A program made the translations under genes and the position numbers. This document shows positions 33,360 to 42,325 of a stretch of DNA of 42,325 nucleotides, piece by piece (position 1 is the stretch's first letter; every line of letters starts with the position of its first letter). Origin of the DNA: Fusobacteriaceae bacterium (lineage in GTDB: Bacteria > Fusobacteriota > Fusobacteriia > Fusobacteriales > Fusobacteriaceae). The stretch lies in contig JAITPM010000021.1 of assembly GCA_031289425.1 (NCBI GenBank), positions 1 through 42,325 on the forward strand, in the 5' to 3' direction. Below the pieces are notes generated by a model that worked only from the letters and a program-made list of their open reading frames with translations, ran no database searches and was not told the origin of the DNA.

Positions 33360-33390
33360 ATATTCTCCAAATGTATATAAACAATAATAT

Positions 33391-35355
33391 TTATTTTATA
33401 TTGCCTATCAAAAATGCAAGATCATTTCCGGTTATCCCGCTTATTCTGGATGCCTCTCCGACTGAAAGAGGTCTTATTTCCATTAAAGATGATTTGGCGA
33501 TATTTGATAATCCCTTTATTTTATTATAATCCAAATCTTTTGGTATTTCAATTTCTTCTAATTGTTTAAACTTTTCTATTTGTTTATTTTCTCTTTCAAT
33601 AAAAATATCATATTTTATTATTGTTTCTATTTCATTTTTGACAAAATATGGATAATTTTTTATATCTATTATATTCTTTAAACTATCATAAGTAACTTCT
33701 TTTATTTTTAAAAGCTCATATGCCGTTAAACCCTTAGTCACCTCTTGTTTAGATTTTACATCTGCTAATATTTCTTTTATTATAGCCAGAGGAATTTTTA
33801 TATTTTTTAAATTTTCTATTTCATTTTCGACAATTTGAACAGCATTTTCCATATAATCTCTTTTGCTTTCTGATAAAATTCCAATTTCTCTCGATTTTTT
33901 ATATAGTCTCATAAATGCATTATTAAAACGTAAAGTCAATCTATATTCCGCTCTAGAGGGTAAAACTCTATATGGTTCTGGTGTGTTTTTATGTATTATG
34001 TCATCTATTAAAACTCCAATATATCCTTCGCTTCTATCTATTATTATAGGAGGTTTATTTTGATTTTTCTTAGCTGCATTCACCCCTGCCATAAATCCCT
34101 GGCTTGCTGCTTCCTCATAACCTGAAGTACCATTTATTTGTCCTGCACAAAATAATCCTTCTATTTTTTTACTCTCTAACGTAGGAAACAATTGACTGGC
34201 TGGGGCATAATCATACTCTACCGCATAGCCATACCTCATAATAGATGCATTTTCCAACCCAGATATTGTATGCAAAATAGCCTCTTGCACAAAAGGCGGC
34301 ATAGCTGTTGTGAGACCATTCACATATATCTCTTCACTATCTTCTGATTCCATTTCGAGAAAAATTTGATGATTGGTTTTTTCTGGAAAATTCATGACTT
34401 TCCTATCAATAGATGGACAGTGTCTGGGTCCATGAGATTGTATCATCCCGCTCATGATTGGAGAAAATTTTAACATTTCTCTGACTATACCTATGGTCTT
34501 TTCTGTAGTATATGTGAGCCATGTTGGAAATGGGTTTTCTTCCTTTGGTTCTGTAAAAATAGAAAAATATTGAGGGTGTTTTTCTCCATGAAGTTCTTTT
34601 ACCTTTGAAAAATCTATGGTTCTTCTATCTATTCTTGGAGGAGTAGCTGTTTGATATCTTTTTATATCAATACCATTTTCTCTCAAACTATCAGATAATT
34701 TTTCGGCAGAAATTTCTCCTTGTCTTCCAGCACTATAGGATACATCTCCTATTACTATTTTCCCTTTAAGGAAAGTCCCTGTTGCTAAAATTATAGATTT
34801 TGCATAATATTTTATTCCTAAGTTTGTTATTATTCCTATTATTTTCTTTTTACTATTATTTGCTTCTTTTTTTATTTTTTCTTTTATCTCTTTTTCTTTT
34901 ATCTCTTCTTTTTTTATTTCTTCTTTTTTTATTTCTTCTTCTTTTATCTCTTCTTCTTTTATCTCTTCTACTATTATTTCATCTACACATTGTTGAATTA
35001 AACTTAAGTTTTTTGTATTTTCAAGCAAAGTTTTCATTTTTTTCCTATATAAATATTTATCTGCTTGGCCTCTTGTTATTCTTGCCGCAGAACCCTTGCT
35101 CTCATTGAGGATTTTTAACTGCAAATTATATTTATCAATATGTGTCCCCATTTCTCCACCCAAAATATTCATTTCCATGACCAAATTACTTTTACCTGGC
35201 GCCCCTATTGATGGATTACAAGACATCATTCCTATATTATCCAGATATAATGTAAAAAGTGCAGTTTTTTCTCCAAGGCGTGCTGCTGCTAATGCAGCTT
35301 CACATCCAGCATGACCTCCACCCACTACAATTATATCATAAGATTTTGAATTCAT
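33391..35355 (-). CDS. mnmG: tRNA uridine 5-carboxymethylaminomethyl modification enzyme MnmG
   Basis: A 654-residue FAD protein: the dinucleotide-binding VVGGGHAGCEAALAAARLG at 10-28, SCNPSIG at 45-51, the FLKGKIVIGD region and a C-terminal GEASRISGITGNDLAFLIGNIK. With MnmE it modifies U34 of several tRNAs. About 45 residues near 128-172 are a charged tract of repeated KEEIK-type units inserted in a surface loop between two conserved strands. It is separated from mnmE by a terminator-like hairpin. Confidence 0.97.
   Translation of the reverse strand: MNSKSYDIIVVGGGHAGCEAALAAARLGEKTALFTLYLDNIGMMSCNPSIGAPGKSNLVMEMNILGGEMGTHIDKYNLQLKILNESKGSAARITRGQADKYLYRKKMKTLLENTKNLSLIQQCVDEIIVEEIKEEEIKEEEIKKEEIKKEEIKEKEIKEKIKKEANNSKKKIIGIITNLGIKYYAKSIILATGTFLKGKIVIGDVSYSAGRQGEISAEKLSDSLRENGIDIKRYQTATPPRIDRRTIDFSKVKELHGEKHPQYFSIFTEPKEENPFPTWLTYTTEKTIGIVREMLKFSPIMSGMIQSHGPRHCPSIDRKVMNFPEKTNHQIFLEMESEDSEEIYVNGLTTAMPPFVQEAILHTISGLENASIMRYGYAVEYDYAPASQLFPTLESKKIEGLFCAGQINGTSGYEEAASQGFMAGVNAAKKNQNKPPIIIDRSEGYIGVLIDDIIHKNTPEPYRVLPSRAEYRLTLRFNNAFMRLYKKSREIGILSESKRDYMENAVQIVENEIENLKNIKIPLAIIKEILADVKSKQEVTKGLTAYELLKIKEVTYDSLKNIIDIKNYPYFVKNEIETIIKYDIFIERENKQIEKFKQLEEIEIPKDLDYNKIKGLSNIAKSSLMEIRPLSVGEASRISGITGNDLAFLIGNIK
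34863..34971 (-). repeat. 15-bp tandem repeat coding KEEIK units inside mnmG
   Basis: About seven imperfect 15-bp units (plus-strand look: TTCTTCTTTTTTTAT and variants) encode EIKEE, EIKKE and EIKEK in a row. Length changes by whole units would keep the frame. Confidence 0.8.
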
Positions 35356-36809: not shown

Positions 36810-37778
36810 CTATTTTTTTCTTTTTATAACTATGTACCTTTTGGGATCTTTACCCTCGCTATAAGTCTCCAATTGTGCATATCTATTCATAACTTCATGT
36901 ATTATTTTTCTTTCCTTGGCAGGCATAGGATTAAGTTTTATCATCTTATTTGTTTTTAAGGTTTTTTCTGCCATTTTCCTTGCTAATTTTTTTAGAGTGT
37001 CATATCTTTTTTCTTTAAATCCTTCTACATCAACTTCGATTCTGTATCTTTTAAATATAGACTTTAGTATATATTCAAAATTATTTAATGTTTTTCCTTT
37101 TTTACCAATTATTATTCCATTATCTTCTCCATATATATTTACAAGATAAGATCTTTCAGAATTTTTTATTACTTTTGCTTCTAAATTTAAACCCATCTTT
37201 TCCAGTAATATTTCAGTCTTTTCCAATAAAGATTCACTTATATCTTCGAAAACAATATTGTTAAGTTCGTTACTACTTCCCTCTAAAACATATTGGTTAA
37301 CTGTTTTTTCTTCTGTTTTATCTAGTAATTTATTATATTGATTAACTTTATCATCATATTTTTTTTCTGGTACATATATATCTTTTTTATTCTCTTCTCT
37401 TTTATTCTCTTCTCTTTTATTCTCTTCTTTTTTATTTTCTTCTTTTTTATTCTCTTCTTTTTTATTTTCTTCTCTTTTGTTTTCTTCTCTTTTTATCTCA
37501 TCTTTTTTACTTTCTCTCTTTTTATTTTCATCTTTTTTTATTTCTTTTTGCGTAATGTCAACCTTTGCATGAGTTTCATTTTTATAGCTTACTTTCTTAT
37601 CTTTATCTATTTCTATAGAATAAACCCCCTCTTTAGTGAAAAGTCCTAAAAAGGATTTACTTTTTTGTATTTCTATTATGTTTACTATATTTTCTTCCCT
37701 AGCTTCAAATATATTTAGAGCTCTCTTTATTGCCTCTTCTTTTGTCATAGCTTTTATTTCTATAGTTTTACTACTCAT
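36810..37778 (-). CDS. khpB: RNA-binding protein KhpB (Jag/EloR) with repeat linker
   Basis: A 322-residue protein: N-terminal Jag domain ([21 protein letters not shown] and [12 protein letters not shown]), a charged linker of about 55 residues, then a KH domain with [18 protein letters not shown] and a C-terminal R3H domain ([15 protein letters not shown]). It binds RNA with KhpA and influences envelope growth in other bacteria. The linker at residues 96-130 is seven copies of a five-residue unit (KREEN or KKEEN). One bp separates it from yidC. Confidence 0.94.
37386..37493 (-). repeat. 15-bp tandem repeat coding [10 protein letters not shown] units inside khpB
   Basis: Seven consecutive 15-bp units encode [30 protein letters not shown] and KREEN. 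Units differ at single bases but all keep the frame. Confidence 0.9.
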
Positions 37779-39934: not shown

Positions 39935-40069
39935 TTATGCTGCTAATTTGTATCTACCTTTTAATTTTCTTCTTTTTAATACTTTTCTTCCATTTTTGGT
40001 TTTCATTCTAGACATAAAACCATGATCTTTTTTTCTTTTTCTATTATTTGGTTGAAATGTTCTTTTCAT
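39935..40069 (-). CDS. rpmH: Ribosomal protein bL34
   Basis: A 44-residue L34: it starts [14 protein letters not shown], contains [16 protein letters not shown] and ends [16 protein letters not shown] lies 6 nt before the ATG. Head of the rpmH-rnpA-yidD-yidC-khpB-mnmE run and the usual marker of the bacterial chromosomal origin region. Confidence 0.97.
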
Positions 40070-40104
40070 TGTTTCACCTCCAAAATTTATTATCTCAGAT
40101 ATTT

Positions 40105-40133
40105 ATTATAAAAGATTTTTCTCATTTAGTCAA
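40105..40133 (-). promoter_or_regulatory. rpmH promoter
   Basis: Minus-strand TTGACT (40128-40133), 17-bp spacer and perfect TATAAT (40105-40110), start near 40098, 36 bp before the rpmH ATG. Confidence 0.8.
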
Positions 40134-40821
40134 GCATTTATTAGATTTTTTATTTGTTTTTTCTTTTCCTGTTTAAAAAATGTTTTTATTGTATTCTTAG
40201 TTTTATGTACAGACTAATTTAAAATAATAATTTTGTTTTTCTTAGAATTTTAGTTAAAAAAAAGATGAAAAAAATAAATTTATATTATTGCACATATACA
40301 AATGATATTTTTCTATTTTTACTCATTTTTTATTTTTTAATGGATGTATTTTTTATTAAAAAATTTGATTTTTAATATTATTGTTAATATGAATTAATAA
40401 AATATGAGAAGTTTATGTATTTTTATAAATTTTGAAAACATAAAAATAGGAAAAAAATTAAGATTTTTTTATTTTTAACAATATACAAACAAAAAATGCT
40501 GCAATTTTGATATTAGAACATTTTTTAATTATTTTTATACTTGGTAAAAATAGGGATAAAAAATGAAAAGGTTAAAAATAAAAAAATATTATTGAGAATA
40601 AACATAACTATGAAGAAAAAAAAATTTAATATTTATTTTTGTTCGTATACATATAATTTATTAAGATTTTTTATTTAAAATATTAAAGGCATATAACAAA
40701 AAAATTATAGTTTGGGTTTTATTTAACTTGCATTTTATTTCTATTGATATACATAAAAATTTTTTTCAATATATTTTTAGGTTAAATAGTTAAATTTTAT
40801 CTCTTATAAATAAAAATAAGG
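40134..40821. other. AT-rich intergenic region, candidate replication origin
   Basis: About 690 bp without a gene lie between the divergent rpmH and initiator-gene promoters. It is extremely A/T-rich with many A- and T-runs. No consensus DnaA box (TTATCCACA or close variants) was found by eye; the nearest is TTATGTACA near 40203. A motif TTAAGATTTTTTATTT occurs at 40458 (one extra T) and 40661, with a shorter relative at 40141, and TAAAAATAGG occurs at 40441 and 40545 with a variant at 40811. These may be iteron-like or only chance in such DNA. Position next to rpmH and an initiator gene is the main support for an origin. Confidence 0.45.
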
Positions 40822-40850
40822 TTGAAATACTTTGACTTTTATTATATAAT
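40822..40850 (+). promoter_or_regulatory. Promoter of the replication initiator-like gene
   Basis: Plus-strand TTGAAA (40822-40827), 17-bp spacer and perfect TATAAT (40845-40850), predicting a start near 40857 and a 33-nt leader with TAAGGA 8 nt before the ATG. Confidence 0.8.
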
Positions 40851-40889
40851 TCTAATAATTATTTATAAAAAATTTTAAGGATAACAACT

Positions 40890-42325
40890 ATGAGTGAAGA
40901 AGCAATCGAAGTAATGGATTTAAAAAATGAAAATCAAGAAATCGTTGATAGTCTTATAATATCAAATTCGGGATCTCTTTTAGAGGACATTACCAATTTG
41001 GAAAATATTAATGATTTTGAAATTACAAGTAGCCAGGTTCCGGATATAGAATTAAAAGAAATAGTAGTAAAGGGAACTGGTAACTTTCTTAATTTGCAGG
41101 AAAATGTAGTAAATATTCCCATAGAAATGATAGTTTTTCCTTTTTTCACTTACCAAAAACAGAATAAAAGAAAAAATTTTGAATATGATTTTCGTGATTT
41201 AGGCGTAAAAATGTTCAGCATTCTTACAGCCAAAAGTGCTTCAGATAAAGTTTTTCAACCTTCGACGTTTGAAGAAAAAATTTATACATATTTGATCTCC
41301 ATGTATGAATGTAAAAAAGAAAAAAATGACAATGAAGATTATATCGAATTTGAAATATCTGATTTTATAACCAATTTCCTTGGAAATAAAATGAATAGGA
41401 CATATTATATAAAAGTGGAACAAGCATTAAAAAATCTAAAAAGCACAGAATATCAATTTATTATATCAAATCATACGAATTTAGGAAAATATAAATTCGA
41501 AGATGCAGAATTCAAATTACTTACTTATCAAAAATTAAGTAAAGGCAAAAAAAAATATTATAGAGTTATTTTAAATAAAAATGTTAGACAGAAAATAAAA
41601 AGTAAAAGATATATTATATATAATTCCAAAGCACTCTTAGAAATACTTACAAAAGATCCTATAGCCGGAAGAATATATAGATATATCAGTAAAATAAGAT
41701 ACGATAAGGGGATAGGAAGTATAAATGTGAGAACTTTAGCTGCTATTATCCCATTAAAAACAGAACAAATTACAACAAGAAAAGATAAAAAAGGAAAGGA
41801 TAAAGAATATACACTATGCAGATTAAAACAGGTTGTAAAAAGAATTGAAAAAGCATTTGATTGTTTAGTCGAGTTGGGTTATATATTAGAAGGCTATTTG
41901 GTAGAAGAATCTAAAGCTGAAGATACATATTATATAAAATATAGATTCAATCCAGAAAAAGATGGGAAATGTCATATTTCAGAGTATATAATTAAAAATA
42001 AAAAAAGAGAAAAAGAAGAGATAGAGGATGCTCAGATAATAACAGAAAGAAATTTAACTGTTTTAAATGGAGCTTCTCAAAAATTAAAGACAACTTATAT
42101 GGTGGATAAAGAGAATCAAACTATTTTTCCTGAAAGTTTATTGGAATCTATAAAATTGGTCAAAAAGAACATTTATGTAAAAAAAGCATGGAATATAGGG
42201 ATTGAAAACAGGCTTTTAAAAATTTTAGATGAATATGGAATAAATACAGTAAAAGAAGTATTAAATAGATTATACAGAAGGAAAACTCCAATTAGAGCTT
42301 TAGTTCAATTCGTGAATGGAATTTT
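40890..42325 (+). CDS. Plasmid-type replication initiator (Rep)-like protein, partial
   Basis: An open frame of 478 codons with no stop, cut by the right window edge. A 75-residue acidic N-terminus precedes a segment NIPIEMIVFPFFTYQKQNKRKNFEYDFRDLGVKMF (split over about 75-109) and QPSTFEEKIYTYLISMYE (123-140). This layout resembles the first winged-helix domain of plasmid RepA/Rep initiators, where a 'P-F-F' strand is followed by a helix starting at a T-F-D/E motif. A second winged-helix-like part spans about 245-355 (LLEILTKDPIAGRIYRYIS through VKRIEKAFDCLVELGYI), and a helical tail follows. No AAA+ Walker motifs and no DnaA domain IV signature occur in the part seen, so it is not DnaA although it occupies the dnaA place beside rpmH. 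Start has TAAGGA at 8 nt and a strong promoter. Family assignment is by recognition only. Confidence 0.65.
   Translation, partial: MSEEAIEVMDLKNENQEIVDSLIISNSGSLLEDITNLENINDFEITSSQVPDIELKEIVVKGTGNFLNLQENVVNIPIEMIVFPFFTYQKQNKRKNFEYDFRDLGVKMFSILTAKSASDKVFQPSTFEEKIYTYLISMYECKKEKNDNEDYIEFEISDFITNFLGNKMNRTYYIKVEQALKNLKSTEYQFIISNHTNLGKYKFEDAEFKLLTYQKLSKGKKKYYRVILNKNVRQKIKSKRYIIYNSKALLEILTKDPIAGRIYRYISKIRYDKGIGSINVRTLAAIIPLKTEQITTRKDKKGKDKEYTLCRLKQVVKRIEKAFDCLVELGYILEGYLVEESKAEDTYYIKYRFNPEKDGKCHISEYIIKNKKREKEEIEDAQIITERNLTVLNGASQKLKTTYMVDKENQTIFPESLLESIKLVKKNIYVKKAWNIGIENRLLKILDEYGINTVKEVLNRLYRRKTPIRALVQFVNGI

Follow-up and report, generated by a model that had tools for sequence, protein, structure and literature searches.

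DnaA is regarded as the initiator that all bacterial chromosomes share, and iteron plasmids commonly need the DnaA of their host. In laboratory integrative suppression, a plasmid Rep and its origin drive the chromosome of a dnaA mutant. Exceptions without dnaA are known among symbionts, organelles, and some cyanobacteria, none of them with a known substitute at the former dnaA locus (PMC7198777). The free-living cyanobacteria without dnaA, Geminocystis and Cyanobacterium, have irregular skew, and as of 2020 no dnaA-less free-living species had been reported outside the cyanobacteria (PMC7198777). RctB, the initiator of Vibrio cholerae chromosome 2, is regulated by extra binding sites outside the core origin (PMC5991422). 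For Fusobacteria, the presence of DciA has been reported, in a paper that mentions DnaA without remarking on any absence of it there (PMC5109545). We found no statement in the open-licence literature, to which the search was confined, that DnaA is missing from Fusobacterium or the Fusobacteriaceae, and an earlier mention in subscription papers or preprints is possible.

The window, by which we mean the whole stretch of DNA analysed, is an entire contig of 42,325 bases (G000:C43) from a Fusobacteriaceae genome of 123 contigs that is 97.8% complete (G000). Its comparison with related genomes makes it very likely, in our judgement, that a plasmid-type Rep replaced DnaA in place together with an iteron origin, that initiation runs through Rep, DciA, and DnaB, and that the iterons limit Rep.

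The rep gene and its protein

The window carries rpmH, rnpA, yidD, yidC, khpB, mnmE, and mnmG as a full block beside a divergent, Rep-like open reading frame at 40890-42323 (+), in the layout that the initial annotation had described. The neighbour that marks the dnaA place is rpmH (39935..40069, minus strand, identified by its translation), which is divergent to dnaA in the outgroup loci that cover rpmH. The reading frame, hereafter rep, is truncated by the end of the contig, which is also the end of the window, so that its 478 codons are the 5' part of the gene and the 478 residues an incomplete protein; orthologues across the family are ~580-650 aa long and share ~54-66% identity. A 102-aa open frame that opens another contig of the same genome (G000:C38:3-311) has weak likeness to the Rep C-terminus (E=0.12) and is followed by rplS, which likewise follows rep in a congener (G051), and for these two reasons it is probably the missing 3' end of rep; we kept the two parts as separate contigs. 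The downstream neighbour of rep is rplS in the window's genus and recF in many other lineages of the family. Low-complexity repeats of the KEE/EEIK type occur in mnmG and khpB (34800-35108 and 37338-37649, minus strand), and a similar repeat, at the start of C38, lies close to the point where rep is interrupted by the contig end.

The initial annotation had also proposed a strong promoter for this gene. A TTGAAA-17-TATAAT element matching the consensus at 11 of 12 positions is indeed present at 40822..40850 (+), with an overlapping alternative at 40832-40859, and we retain it as a candidate rep promoter, but such elements are no commoner here than expected by chance: the AT-rich stretch has 11 promoter-like matches, versus 13.1 in shuffled sequences.

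Among the plasmid initiator families to which the initial annotation had pointed, the window protein matches RPA (replication initiator protein A, PF10134) with 28.4 bits at a cut-off of 27, whereas the Rep3_N and Rep3_C profiles of Rep_3 (PF01051) gave no match. Relatives score 27.6 (L036, F. mortiferum-type) and 32.1 (F. gastrosuis) against PF10134 at the same cut-off, and a score only just above a curated cut-off is a caveat on the family assignment. NCBIfam and PHROG had no match for the window protein. We rejected the protein as a DnaA, as both the AAA+ Walker motifs and domain IV are missing: no Walker A motif was found in it, and PF00308, TIGR00362, and PF08299 had no match at the window's rep gene.

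A sequence search of the PDB with Rep returned only chance matches (ETS factors and cullin), so we turned to fold comparison. An AlphaFold2 model of Rep built from 15 aligned sequences reached a mean pLDDT of 60.9, a moderate confidence, and its winged-helix-like regions of secondary structure lie largely between 60 and 90; a second model, of a full-length relative, was less confident. The best Foldseek match of the window model is RctB (5tbf and 5ubf; E=3.3e-6 for 5tbf), followed by RepE of plasmid F (2z9o, E=1.3e-4) and a plasmid Rep bound to unwound-strand DNA (8ac8, E=5e-4), and all PDB matches at E<0.001 belong to this RctB/RepE/plasmid Rep group. The predicted fold supports the assignment of Rep to the tandem winged-helix initiators of the Rep_3/RctB superfamily, and agrees with the earlier description of a protein with two winged helices and no Walker motifs. 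In addition, the C-terminal region of Rep recurs in plasmid-borne Reps from this host family whose remaining sequence is of the Rep_3 type; one of these (L182) is 38% identical to Rep over 215 residues and has strong Rep3_N and Rep3_C matches. This common region is a direct sign of plasmid ancestry. Rep is strongly conserved, with an invariant MIVFPFFT..QKQNK, and a conserved segment of 25 residues, used as a protein query against the window's own genome, re-found the rep gene alone.

DnaA and Rep across the Fusobacteriota

We surveyed 98 Fusobacteriota genomes, comprising 61 Fusobacteriaceae and 37 from five other families. None of the 61 Fusobacteriaceae genomes, the window's own included, has a DnaA above the TIGR00362 cut-off or a match to DnaA domain IV (PF08299). 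Outside Fusobacteriaceae, PF08299 is over its cut-off in 36 of the 37 genomes, and TIGR00362 scores reach 336-556 bits in 36 of the 37, the exception being a genome that is 82% complete (G086); four Streptobacillus-like genomes fall just under the TIGR00362 cut-off of 343.9, and all four have PF08299. DnaA thus appears to be gone from the entire family Fusobacteriaceae, Fusobacterium included. The initial annotation had expected Fusobacterium to carry dnaA next to rpmH; the whole genus lacks the gene, and the arrangement belongs instead to Leptotrichiaceae and other families. The annotation's other suggestion, a Rep protein working alongside DnaA, is excluded insofar as a DnaA would be detectable.

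A strong Rep orthologue (>400 bits) is present in 56 of the 61 Fusobacteriaceae genomes, at the dnaA place by rpmH in related genomes, and two more have fragments at contig ends. The three genomes with no rep orthologue are 93% (G040), 70% (G046), and 76% (G060) complete. The genera with Rep include Fusobacterium, Cetobacterium, Ilyobacter, Propionigenium, and Psychrilyobacter. The sole relative outside the family, at 42% identity, lies on a 298-kb plasmid of Haliovirga (G062), which has DnaA on its chromosome.

In the other Fusobacteriota families, rpmH and dnaA are divergently oriented wherever rpmH is covered, and recF lies downstream of dnaA in most; many Fusobacteriaceae have rep in the same position, divergent to rpmH and upstream of recF, and dciA, gyrB, and gyrA come after recF in the rep loci examined. 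Because this rpmH/recF frame is the same in rep loci and in outgroup dnaA loci, Rep occupies the dnaA position, and gene order indicates that it took the place of dnaA in situ. The chromosomal Reps form a single clade in our tree (47 rows, support 100/99), and outside it fall the Reps encoded on second replicons of ~1 Mb in Ilyobacter and genus g14, on a 124-kb plasmid, and on the plasmid of Haliovirga; long branches make finer statements from this tree unsafe. Location on a plasmid or megaplasmid is confined to the outer branches, and the window's clade is chromosomal.

Several replicons in the survey are of interest in their own right. The ~1-Mb and 124-kb replicons of Ilyobacter and genus g14 (G042:C2/C3, G043:C2, G054:C3, and G059:C1; L145-L147, L149, and L155) carry diverged Reps of the same superfamily at ~35% identity, and these multi-replicon cells have plasmid-type Reps on chromosome and second replicon alike. 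A 22-kb contig (G009:C6, L154) holds a second rep copy, a decayed copy of the gene, and the iteron array duplicated in inverted orientation, a set that reflects either a true duplication or an artefact of assembly. The F. vincentii record NZ_CP084075.1 (L196), which is 2.1 Mb long and filed as plasmid pSB055A, has rpmH, iterons, rep, recF, gyrB, and gyrA, and is in all likelihood the chromosome.

The rpmH-rep gap and its iterons

The gap between rpmH and rep (40070..40889) spans 820 bp at 15% GC, and we consider it the putative chromosomal origin, with iterons and a probable unwinding region. For three genomes assembled as single contigs, with rep away from the contig start (G016, G027, and G039), we sampled GC skew in stretches of 20 kb. 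In all three, skew turns from negative to positive at the rpmH-rep gap, within ~1-2 kb; the opposite switch is roughly antipodal in G016 and G027, the far side of G039 is noisier, and one G027 stretch ~100 kb from rep has the opposite sign. Skew also changes across the gap in the window (-0.30 to its left, +0.24 in rep), and the F. vincentii record has the same local switch, a signal that reports long-term origin position and not the identity of the initiator. No DnaA box (TTATNCACA) lies near the gap, and the 42-kb window has one, versus 2.4 expected, and no cluster. A phage origin was considered and rejected: phage records gave no match, and no match in viral contigs was confirmed.

When applied to just the window, automated repeat finding returned mostly AT-rich noise, and the iteron surfaced only from pooled relatives. 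Motif learning on the pooled gaps of relatives, which rewarded repeats within a gap, yielded a 22-bp iteron close to AATATTATTGTTnATATACATA. Applied to the window, which was left out of its training, the resulting PWM picks up six + strand copies in the gap, whereas simulated sequences of the same composition average 0.02 copies and have at most 1. These are iteron 1, TATATTATTGCACATATACAAA (40281..40302, score 8.3); iteron 2, AATATTATTGTTAATATGAATT (40374..40395, score 6.0); iteron 3, a weak copy, TTTATTTTTAACAATATACAAA (40468..40489, score 3.3); iteron 4, AATATTATTGAGAATAAACATA (40585..40606, score 7.3); iteron 5, TTTATTTTTGTTCGTATACATA (40632..40653, score 9.9); and iteron 6, TTTATTTCTATTGATATACATA (40734..40755, score 4.9). 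Direct repeats of ~17-22 bp beside rep, the mark of an iteron-type (theta) replicon, are therefore present. Every gap examined has 2-7 same-strand copies; the commonest spacing is 104-106 bp, a peak that would bear on helical phasing, although the periodicity scan was not clean. The 20-kb stretch that holds the origin has 21, 14, and 11 iteron matches in G016, G027, and G039, respectively, and the other stretches have 0-3. The motif is missing at the Rep genes of second replicons and plasmids, so the iteron is specific to the chromosomal Rep clade. We infer that the iterons are Rep-binding sites and that Rep has a role in initiation. In many species iterons lie close to the rep start, which suggests autoregulation. 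The six iterons, and an arrangement that is family-wide with dnaA absent, go beyond what the initial annotation had seen.

Iterons also occur outside the gap, and in the genomes examined they are concentrated in the 100-200 kb around it. Exact 18-mer iteron cores outside the gap fall within 120 kb of the origin in 16 of 20 cases in G026 (P = 7e-16 for origin-proximal clustering), 15 of 23 in G027 (3e-13), and 14 of 16 in G028 (1e-14), three genomes of one genus that are not fully independent. The window itself has an extra-origin iteron, AATATTATTGTTTATATACATT, just past mnmG (33370..33391, minus strand, PWM score 10.9), with a counterpart past mnmG in G027 (L099:15100). The plainest reading of the origin-proximal iterons would be a Rep-binding pool that is doubled early after initiation and so takes up Rep, similar to titration in iteron plasmids or of DnaA, and their position suggests titration control. 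Another contig of the window's genome has five iterons grouped in an intergenic stretch (G000:C28:50306-50764; L122:10306-10764), downstream of dnaN and an amidohydrolase-like gene and near a tyrosine-recombinase gene; this group is possibly a site of Rep titration or control.

Proposed mechanism, rival explanations, and known systems

We propose that, in an ancestor of the Fusobacteriaceae, the Rep of a plasmid or megaplasmid, from the RPA/Rep_3/RctB structural group, displaced dnaA at its locus together with an iteron origin. Rep would bind the iterons, then melt the AT-rich gap and recruit DnaB with the helicase operator DciA, giving bidirectional replication. DnaB is present in the family genomes tested, as is DciA, often in a cluster rep-recF-dciA-gyrB; no clear resident DnaC/DnaI loader was found in these genomes, the exceptions being one match in G016 and, for the genome of the window, a weak phage-side one. 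The iterons near the rep start and those scattered near the origin may cap free Rep through autoregulation, handcuffing, and titration, and a limiting Rep would couple initiation to gene dosage, so that plasmid copy-number control would be put to timing the main chromosome. It is likely that Rep is the sole starter of the main chromosome in an entire free-living family with no DnaA, and that timing is set by titration on iterons within ~100 kb of the origin. The absence of DnaA, the conservation of Rep, the skew, the iterons, and the relatives on plasmids and second replicons all fit the initial annotation's alternative of a captured plasmid initiator that starts the chromosome.

The true initiator could instead be an over-divergent DnaA or another AAA+ protein, with Rep a regulator or licensing factor at the origin. 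Origins can carry accessory binding proteins, and some family genomes do have weak TIGR00362 matches, but even the best of them are short P-loop matches (at most 65 bits, profile positions 66-283, in G023), unevenly distributed among species, and that of the window's genome sits on a 5-kb contig beside phage-like genes. Given that domain IV is missing from the whole family, that Rep occupies the dnaA place, and that the neighbouring families score so high in the same search, we regard this explanation as unlikely, and a divergent DnaA as such was rejected on PF08299 and TIGR00362 over the 98 genomes. It is very unlikely that the family needs no dedicated initiator and that Rep is a remnant or serves another role: DnaA-independent replication is known in cyanobacteria (PMC7198777), but those dnaA-less cyanobacteria have irregular skew, whereas the switch here is sharp and single, Rep retains its invariant motif, and iterons are kept in all gaps examined.

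The chance that rep is merely a plasmid integrated at the origin in single strains, with no part in chromosomal replication, is next to nil. Relatives of Rep do reside on plasmids and megaplasmids of Ilyobacter, Haliovirga, and others, but the 47 sampled family members form one orthologous clade whose chromosomal locus is shared and free of surrounding plasmid genes, with dnaA absent, and this family-wide conservation and synteny refute an integrated plasmid. Nor did we find, for the gene in the window, a dnaA nearby with boxes, a profile match to a non-initiator family, or confinement to a single strain.

If in-place replacement by Rep is correct, the bacterial initiator would have been exchanged in nature and the exchange become fixed, and its occurrence in the medically important Fusobacterium family would show that the initiator itself is replaceable. 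It would also mean that the copy-control circuitry of a plasmid is able to set the timing of a main chromosome, and DnaA-free, Rep-dependent chromosomal initiation would become directly testable in Fusobacterium. Tools that define a chromosome by dnaA would be affected, the F. vincentii record filed as a plasmid being an example.

Among known systems, RctB at ori2 of V. cholerae chromosome 2 is, like Rep, a plasmid-derived winged-helix initiator with origin repeats on a chromosome-sized replicon, and it is the top fold match. Extra binding sites outside the core origin are a further likeness, which in Fusobacteriaceae are predicted iterons only. RctB, however, serves a second chromosome in a cell whose main one uses DnaA, whereas Rep lies at the main chromosome origin with DnaA gone, and the RctB repeats are tandem 12-mers with 39-mers, whereas those of Rep are 22-bp sites most often ~105 bp apart. 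The RPA (PF10134) and Rep_3 (PF01051/PF21205) plasmid initiators, such as RepE of F and TrfA of RK2, resemble Rep in the RPA profile, the fold (RepE and plasmid Rep), the iterons upstream of the gene, and the C-terminal region that Rep has in common with Rep_3 proteins; they replicate plasmids, whereas the Fusobacteriaceae Rep occupies the place of dnaA on the chromosome of cells that lack DnaA. Geminocystis and Cyanobacterium are, like Fusobacteriaceae, free-living and without dnaA, but have no identified substitute at the old locus, whereas Fusobacteriaceae combine one sharply defined origin with an evident substitute. Integrative suppression likewise puts a plasmid Rep and origin in place of DnaA; compared with it, the Fusobacteriaceae case would be natural, fixed in the whole family, and situated at the dnaA locus itself, with dnaA lost.
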